Shown here in pieces: positions 7,368-9,236 of a stretch of 64,000 bases of DNA. The notes beneath the pieces are model-generated. The model searched no databases. It had not been told where the DNA came from and was given only the letters and a program-made list of their open reading frames with translations. The position numbers and the translations under genes were made by a program. Location: NCBI RefSeq assembly GCF_016469335.1, contig NZ_CP059888.1, positions 2,666,001-2,730,000 of the forward strand, read 5' to 3'. Within the stretch, counting starts at the first letter, position 1. Every line of letters begins with the position of its first letter. This DNA is from Flocculibacter collagenilyticus (GTDB taxonomy: Bacteria > Pseudomonadota > Gammaproteobacteria > Enterobacterales > Alteromonadaceae).

Positions 7368-7381
7368 TTGATCAAAATCAA
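7368..7381 (+). promoter_or_regulatory. Perfect FNR-type operator upstream of trhP-yfhL
   Basis: TTGAT-CAAA-ATCAA matches the FNR consensus TTGAT-N4-ATCAA at all ten fixed positions. Its centre (7374.5) is about 71.5 bp before the start site predicted from the candidate trhP promoter (about 7446), a spacing used by class I FNR activation. It lies farther from, and upstream of, the divergent ndk promoter. Binding is inferred from sequence. Confidence 0.65.
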
Positions 7382-7410
7382 CATAATAGAAATGAAAGGA
7401 TAAAGAGCCC

Positions 7411-7439
7411 TTTACCCTGCACTGTAAGGGTTATAAAAT
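7411..7439 (+). promoter_or_regulatory. Candidate promoter for trhP-yfhL
   Basis: -35 TTTACC (7411-7416), 17-bp spacer, -10 TAAAAT (7434-7439), then a GC-rich GCGCACCC discriminator. The -10 is one mismatch from consensus and the -35 is weak, as expected for an activator-dependent promoter. Confidence 0.5.
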
Positions 7440-7563
7440 GCGCACCCGCTATTTTTAGAGCTAGACTCAGTGCTTAACTTAAACGGTCATGCCACAGATT
7501 TATCAATAGTCCGATTTATAGCTAACACAAATGCGTTAACAGATTAAGGTTCATGAGGTAATT

Positions 7564-8991
7564 ATGTCAGACACACAAAATATCCAACAAACGCAAGCAC
7601 AAGCTTGGCTTAAACCGGAATTACTTGCACCTGCTGGCAGCCTTAAAAACATGCGTTATGCCTTTGCATATGGTGCAGATGCCGTATACGCAGGGCAACC
7701 TCGTTATAGCTTACGTGTTCGCAATAATGAATTTAACTTAGAAAATCTCGCTATTGGTATAAAAGAAGCACATCAACAAAATAAAAAGTTTTATGTGGTT
7801 AGTAATATCGCACCCCACAATGGCAAAATTAATACTTATTTAAAAGATATTAAGCCTGTAATTGAAATGGGGCCAGACGCGCTTATCATGTCAGATCCCG
7901 GCTTAATTATGTTAGTGCGTGAAGCCTTTCCAGATATGCCAATTCACTTGTCGGTACAAGCGAACGCCGTCAATTACGCCACTGTAAAGTTTTGGGCAAA
8001 ACAAGGTATTGAACGTGTTATTTTATCGCGCGAATTATCACTTAATGAAATAGAAGAAATACGTGAGTTGTGTCCAGAAACTGAACTAGAAGTGTTTGTT
8101 CATGGTGCTTTATGCATGGCTTACTCTGGCCGCTGTTTATTATCAGGATACATGAACAAACGCGACCCTAATCAAGGCACTTGCACTAACGCCTGCCGTT
8201 GGAGTTACGACGTAAAAGAAGCGAAAGAAGATGAAACGGGTGATGTTGTTCAAAAAATCACCCCTAATGACGTTATACCTACGCTAGGTGAAGGCCAGCC
8301 AACCGATAACATTTTCATGTTGGAACAAGATGGTAAGCCAGGTGAGTTAATGCCGGCATTTGAGGATGAACACGGCACTTACATAATGAACTCGAAAGAT
8401 CTTCGTGCGGTACAGCATGTTGAACGTTTAACTAAAATGGGCGTGCATTCATTAAAAATTGAAGGCCGAACAAAGTCCCATTATTACTGCGCCCGAACTG
8501 CTCAAGTGTATCGTCGCGCAATTGATGACGCTGTTGCTGGTAAGCCATTTGATGCAAGTTTAATGAAAGTGTTAGAAAACCTCGCGCATAGAGGCTACAC
8601 CGAAGGTTTCTTAAGACGTCATGCTCATCAAGAATATCAGAACTATGACTATGGCCACTCGGTAAGTGATCAGCAGCAATTCTGTGGTGACGTTATTGAG
8701 CGTAACCAATACAACGGTCTAGTCGAAATTGAAGTTAAAAATAAATTCAGTGTTGGCGATCAATTAGAGTTAATGACGCCAAACGGCAATATTAGTTTTA
8801 CTCTAAATAAAATGTTAGATAAAAGTGGCAAAGACACTGATGTTGCAAAAGGTTCTGGTCACACCGTTTATATTCCACTGCCAGAGGATATAGATTTGTC
8901 TTTTGCCATTTTGCTACGGAATTTAGATACACCTAGCATACAGAGTGAGAGTAGTAAAAAATCAATCGCCACCTTATCTGGTAACCTTTAA
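7564..8991 (+). CDS. trhP: tRNA 5-hydroxyuridine synthesis protein TrhP (U32 peptidase-like)
   Basis: Member of the U32 family known as YegQ/TrhP in E. coli, where it makes 5-hydroxyuridine at the wobble position (U34) of tRNAs by an O2-independent route. 475 residues. Seen: LLAPAGSLKNMRYAFAYGAD near the N-terminus, the U32 signature ELEVFVHGALCMAYSGRC, and Cys residues in the following segment (GTCTNACRW) that probably bind a cluster. The start is the ATG after GAGG (9 bases). Its TAA overlaps the ATG of the yfhL ferredoxin by one base. An FNR-type site lies upstream. The reaction is known from E. coli; regulation here is inferred. Confidence 0.93.
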   Translation: MSDTQNIQQTQAQAWLKPELLAPAGSLKNMRYAFAYGADAVYAGQPRYSLRVRNNEFNLENLAIGIKEAHQQNKKFYVVSNIAPHNGKINTYLKDIKPVIEMGPDALIMSDPGLIMLVREAFPDMPIHLSVQANAVNYATVKFWAKQGIERVILSRELSLNEIEEIRELCPETELEVFVHGALCMAYSGRCLLSGYMNKRDPNQGTCTNACRWSYDVKEAKEDETGDVVQKITPNDVIPTLGEGQPTDNIFMLEQDGKPGELMPAFEDEHGTYIMNSKDLRAVQHVERLTKMGVHSLKIEGRTKSHYYCARTAQVYRRAIDDAVAGKPFDASLMKVLENLAHRGYTEGFLRRHAHQEYQNYDYGHSVSDQQQFCGDVIERNQYNGLVEIEVKNKFSVGDQLELMTPNGNISFTLNKMLDKSGKDTDVAKGSGHTVYIPLPEDIDLSFAILLRNLDTPSIQSESSKKSIATLSGNL

Positions 8992-9236
8992 TGGCACTAA
9001 AGATTTTAGACAGCTGCATTAATTGTGATATGTGTGATCCAGAATGCCCCAATGAAGCCATTTCTATGGGGCAAAAGATATATGAGATTGAGCCAGACAA
9101 GTGTACAGAGTGTGTTGGGCATTACGATAACCCAACATGTGTCAGCGTTTGTCCTATTAACTGTATTATTGTTGATCCAGATAATATTGAAACGGTGGAT
9201 CAATTAGCTGAGAAATTTGTCAAACTACATGGTTGA
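8991..9236 (+). CDS. yfhL: YfhL-type 2[4Fe-4S] ferredoxin
   Basis: 81 residues, nearly colinear with E. coli YfhL. Two clusters of Cys ligands are seen: CINCDMCDPECPNEAI and CTEC followed by the characteristic insertion CVGHYDNPTC then CVSVCP. Soluble electron carrier. Its start codon overlaps the trhP stop by one base, giving a two-gene operon. This suggests it delivers electrons to, or helps mature, the Fe-S-dependent tRNA hydroxylation system. That partnership is inferred from the coupling. Confidence 0.92.
   Translation: MALKILDSCINCDMCDPECPNEAISMGQKIYEIEPDKCTECVGHYDNPTCVSVCPINCIIVDPDNIETVDQLAEKFVKLHG

Follow-up and report, generated by a model that had tools for sequence, protein, structure and literature searches.

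A conserved FNR-type box upstream of trhP points to oxygen-responsive control of O2-independent tRNA hydroxylation in Flocculibacter collagenilyticus and its relatives

Introduction

When would a bacterium that encodes two enzymes for the same modification of the tRNA wobble base use one of them rather than the other? The question is raised by the trhP locus of Flocculibacter collagenilyticus. In E. coli, 5-hydroxyuridine at tRNA position 34 (ho5U34) is formed by TrhP, which uses prephenate and needs no O2, and by TrhO, which depends on O2 (PMC6599085); the initial annotation of this DNA had drawn the same division between the two enzymes. The annotation had also placed an operator for FNR in front of trhP. 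The site is followed up here in the window, which is the whole stretch of 64,000 nucleotides that was analysed, in the rest of the genome and in the trhP upstream regions of other organisms.

Results

From left to right, the minus-strand genes rlmN (identified by reading) and ndk are followed at this locus by the divergent plus-strand genes trhP and yfhL. The trhP gene (also called yegQ; 7564-8991, plus strand) encodes the prephenate-dependent, O2-independent tRNA U34 hydroxylase; its product matches PF01136 and PF16325 and passes the NF011996 equivalog with 822.7 bits against a cut-off of 534. The start of yfhL (8991-9236, plus strand) overlaps the stop of trhP by 1 base, and its product is a 4Fe-4S dicluster ferredoxin (NF033683 equivalog, 132.6 bits). 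In most relatives yfhL is likewise found directly 3' of trhP, and our guess is that this Fe-S ferredoxin may be the electron supplier.

The candidate FNR box, TTGATCAAAATCAA (TTGAT-CAAA-ATCAA; 7368-7381, assigned to neither strand), is located midway between the start codons of ndk and trhP. A pattern scan against TTGAT-N4-ATCAA found 10 of 10 fixed bases matched, in agreement with the perfect consensus that had been claimed for it. The promoter-like element nearest to the box, which is also the best one before trhP in a consensus scan, is TTTACC-17-TAAAAT (7411-7439), with a score of 9/12. It consists of the -35-like hexamer TTTACC (7411-7416, plus strand), which is weak and was detected by the consensus scan only, and a predicted -10 hexamer TAAAAT (7434-7439, plus strand), also from the consensus scan, for which -10-like hexamers are seen at FNR-phased distances in relatives. 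This is followed by the G/C-rich discriminator GCGCACC (7440-7446, plus strand). Counting from position 7439 as -7, the predicted start site (+1) falls at 7446, which puts the centre of the box (7374.5) at -71.5. The spacing of about 71.5 bp and the weak -35 that the initial annotation had described were therefore both recovered, and the class I position that it had assigned stands by this prediction and by the ladder of activating distances in most box-bearing lineages that is described below.

A -10 hexamer with a G/C-rich discriminator is common before trhP, being present in 138 of 230 upstream regions compared with about 22 in shuffles. In relatives the discriminator reads GCGCCGC or GCCGCGC where the window has GCGCACC, and this G/C-rich element resembles the promoters of stable RNAs that are under stringent control.

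Taken singly, the site in the window is not significant and is weak evidence. When one mismatch is allowed, 8 matches occur in the window where 4.85 would be expected, which is no clear excess, and the 3.97-Mb genome contains 32 exact matches, most of which are inside open reading frames apart from 6 that represent one spot in the copies of the 23S rRNA gene. These six (TTGATGTCTATCAA, identity by reading) are at G000:C1:59455, 428960, 2582534, 2980336, 3339653 and 3671810, and such same-spot matches mean that raw pattern counts overstate the number of FNR sites. The genome-wide count was dropped as proof of FNR control, since the excess of 32 over 6 in the reversed control includes the six 23S rRNA copies and many sites internal to open reading frames.

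The case is decided by conservation upstream of trhP, a check in relatives that had been proposed along with the box. Loci were sampled from named organisms (80) and from the family of the window's organism (more than 100), and identical regions were removed to give 174 distinct 300-base trhP upstream regions. Of the 174, 31 carry the exact box and 96 a box with no more than one mismatch, counts that should be read with the caveat that the family sample is uneven and that closely related loci are non-independent. Dinucleotide shuffles of the same 174 regions gave 0.17 exact boxes and 4.4 with at most one mismatch (maximum 10), and 19 control palindromes with permuted half-sites averaged 0.16 and 4.5, respectively. 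The box is conserved with trhP far above chance, and this conservation is limited by lineage. In the window's family 25 of the 37 genera sampled bear the box and about one third do not; many Pseudoalteromonas have ATGAT or CTGAT as the left half, which is a weaker FNR half-site. Outside the family the box was detected in Moritella, family f2, Motilimonas and a few other loci. It was not found in the trhP upstream regions of Shewanella or Ferrimonas or of the Vibrionaceae examined, nor at nearly all of the Pasteurellaceae-like loci examined, and the 300 bases upstream of E. coli trhP likewise lack one.

FNR activates at class II and class I promoters from centres at about -41, -61, -71 and -82, which are helically phased. 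To survey the spacing at trhP, boxes followed by a -10-like hexamer and a G/C-rich discriminator were collected and the gap between box and -10 was measured. The largest cluster, with 40 loci, has gaps of 21-22 nt (centre about -41 to -41.5); the others lie at 40-41 nt (20 loci, centre about -60), at 50-52 nt (3 loci, namely the window, L120 and L181; centre -69.5 to -71.5) and at 60-62 nt (8 loci, centre about -80), and few gaps fell between these clusters. Pseudoalteromonas and Moritella belong to the -41 type, Alteromonas belongs to the -60 type, and the -71.5 spacing of the window falls in the rarest class in the survey. The trhP boxes share their helically phased centres with typical class II and class I FNR promoters but differ from them in that the class varies between lineages for one target gene. 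The helical phase is kept while the distance changes, which would not be expected of a repressor site or a relic, and this is the strongest argument that the box would serve activation.

The genome encodes a single FNR, which shares 64% identity with its E. coli counterpart and scores above the cut-off of NF008365 (NCBIfam Fnr). It has the recognition helix TVETISRLL, of the E-x-x-S-R type, as in E. coli, and the cluster cysteines in CQNCSISELC and MVCEIP. An exact box also stands about 130 bp before fnr itself, so FNR autoregulation is possible. Another exact box precedes a MarR-like gene that adjoins a cytochrome bd-type oxidase gene (by reading); the sites concerned are L214:1501-1514 and L224:1501-1514. 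Since FNR and CRP, the cAMP sensor, share a TGA...TCA core in their sites, the binding protein could instead be CRP, in which case trhP would be controlled by carbon supply and not by oxygen, and left halves such as ATGATCTAGATCAA are indeed intermediate between FNR and CRP sites. However, the site in the window does not fit the CRP consensus TGTGA-N6-TCACA, being of the FNR type in both halves, and that consensus occurs with at most one mismatch in only 3 of the 174 regions. Additionally, 88 of the 96 boxes have A as the last base of the right half, whereas CRP needs a C. CRP was rejected as the binder on these grounds and is a very unlikely alternative to FNR.

The position of the box in the window, midway between two start codons, would also suit a role for FNR at the divergent ndk gene, either in place of trhP or at both genes. 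However, of the box-bearing loci whose neighbours could be scored (60), ndk is missing from the vicinity in 39 and present in 21, and the fact that the box is kept at those 39 loci indicates that it belongs to trhP. The spacing is, moreover, phased to the -10 of trhP. The ndk gene was rejected as the target, and we consider such a role still less probable than binding by CRP. Least probable of all is a chance match: although a few exact copies of such a palindrome should turn up in a genome, and most of the exact matches here are in open reading frames or rRNA with no clear excess in the window, the roughly twentyfold conservation over shuffles and the phased spacing refute chance for the family as a whole, and for this single copy it is possible if the promoter is elsewhere.

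The oxygen-dependent partner, TrhO, is encoded elsewhere in the genome (NF001133 equivalog, 346.4 bits, cut-off 170), and no box was found in the upstream gap of trhO. Of the 295 genomes from the window's family, 289 have a TrhO match, and this near-universal presence fits with TrhP being an oxygen-free supplement. The 6 genomes without a TrhO match all have trhP; a box with at most one mismatch is absent in 4 of them and present in 2. An association between the box and the presence of TrhO was dropped as a candidate, given so few genomes without TrhO and this split. Three of the 4 genomes without either belong to genus g9 (G008, G056 and G119), as would be expected if TrhP must work aerobically there, but the box is also lacking in a fourth g9 genome, G091, which does have TrhO.

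A different element was detected in trhP leaders outside the window. It is a hairpin of the form CUGA-[YYUGNNA]-UCAG, with a seven-base loop, located just upstream of the trhP start codon and often with a second hairpin directly before it. It is present in most of the Enterobacteriaceae, Pasteurellaceae, Vibrionaceae and Pseudoalteromonas examined and in several other families; the first three names stand for families f18, f8 and f21 and were inferred from gene content and likeness to named loci. The E. coli example is at L126:5580-5668, and others are in the leaders of L060, L231, L237, L246, L016, L027 and further loci. In total, 90 of 230 distinct upstream regions carry the hairpin, compared with 1 of 3720 shuffles. 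The first (upstream) hairpin covaries strongly, with both partners altered in 8 of 9 pairs and 36 cells against 10.9 in the shuffled data, and the loop hairpin of Pseudoalteromonas covaries as well (12 cells against 4.2). When a covariance model of the leader was run on 59 whole genomes, the strongest matches adjoined trhP, except for one inside an open reading frame.

This hairpin copies the anticodon arm of the tRNAs that are substrates of TrhP, of the Thr UGU, Ala UGC and Ser UGA type. The anticodon arm of E. coli tRNA-Thr(UGU) is CUGA-CUUGUAA-UCAG and the loop of tRNA-Ala(UGC) is UUUGCAC, and both loops are found in trhP leaders. Recurrent short matches of the covariance model to the loop hairpin proved to be tRNA-Thr(UGU) genes in 10 of the 10 loci checked. 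As the tRNAs of the mimicked class are TrhP substrates, substrate mimicry as a means of feedback comes readily to mind, and the leader sequences suggest that trhP autoregulation of this kind is possible. Rfam contains no known RNA family at the trhP locus and does not contain the leader hairpin, and a literature search found no paper on it. The anticodon-arm hairpin was not found in the window. One scheme would have trhP under two alternative layers of control, with feedback through the mimic hairpin in many families, loss of the hairpin and use of FNR instead in the lineage of the window, and retention of both in Pseudoalteromonas, Moritella and Motilimonas. We offer this scheme tentatively, as something that is rather more doubtful than probable.

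Discussion

The comparison of upstream sequences suggests activation of trhP-yfhL by FNR when there is no oxygen, through the box at 7368-7381, and we give this reading a probability of about 0.87. In the proposed mechanism, the [4Fe-4S] FNR dimer would bind at about -71.5 in the absence of oxygen and would contact RNA polymerase in the class I manner, raising the output of a trhP-yfhL promoter whose -35 is poor. The induced TrhP would then provide an O2-independent route to 5-hydroxyuridine at tRNA position 34 at a time when TrhO cannot work. The sign and magnitude of the response, like the benefit to decoding, are what we infer from this arrangement. The bacterium of the window and the many marine relatives that share the site probably turn TrhP up when oxygen runs out.

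There is a precedent for this arrangement. In E. coli, FNR activates ubiUV, and the products are O2-independent hydroxylases of the U32 family that are paired with O2-dependent ones (PMC10470549). The E. coli ubiUV/ubiT genes and the trhP locus have in common an FNR box and U32-family O2-independent enzymes that back up O2-dependent ones. However, the product there is ubiquinone and not a tRNA wobble base, and FNR control was demonstrated by mutation whereas here it is deduced from sequence. The report on the dual TrhP/TrhO pathways of E. coli (PMC6599085) describes the same two enzymes, O2-independent and O2-dependent, in one genome. That paper makes no mention of FNR, and E. coli trhP, unlike that of the window, has no box. 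Other signals may also control trhP, since low salinity raised YegQ (TrhP) 11.9-fold in Photobacterium damselae, one of the strongest inductions of any gene there (PMC10308900). In the open full-text literature no report of control of yegQ/trhP by FNR or by anaerobic growth was found, although a listing in subscription papers or in RegPrecise is possible. FNR-activated genes as such are already known, and trhP would appear to be a newly recognised and well-conserved member of that group.

If this reading is true, trhP would rise in an FNR-dependent manner without oxygen, and loss of the box would lower ho5U/cmo5U34. Oxygen would then control the route by which a wobble modification is synthesised, a logic shared with the control of the O2-independent ubiquinone enzymes by FNR. 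This suggests a reason for keeping both enzymes in the family, with TrhP as the anaerobic partner of the near-universal TrhO.
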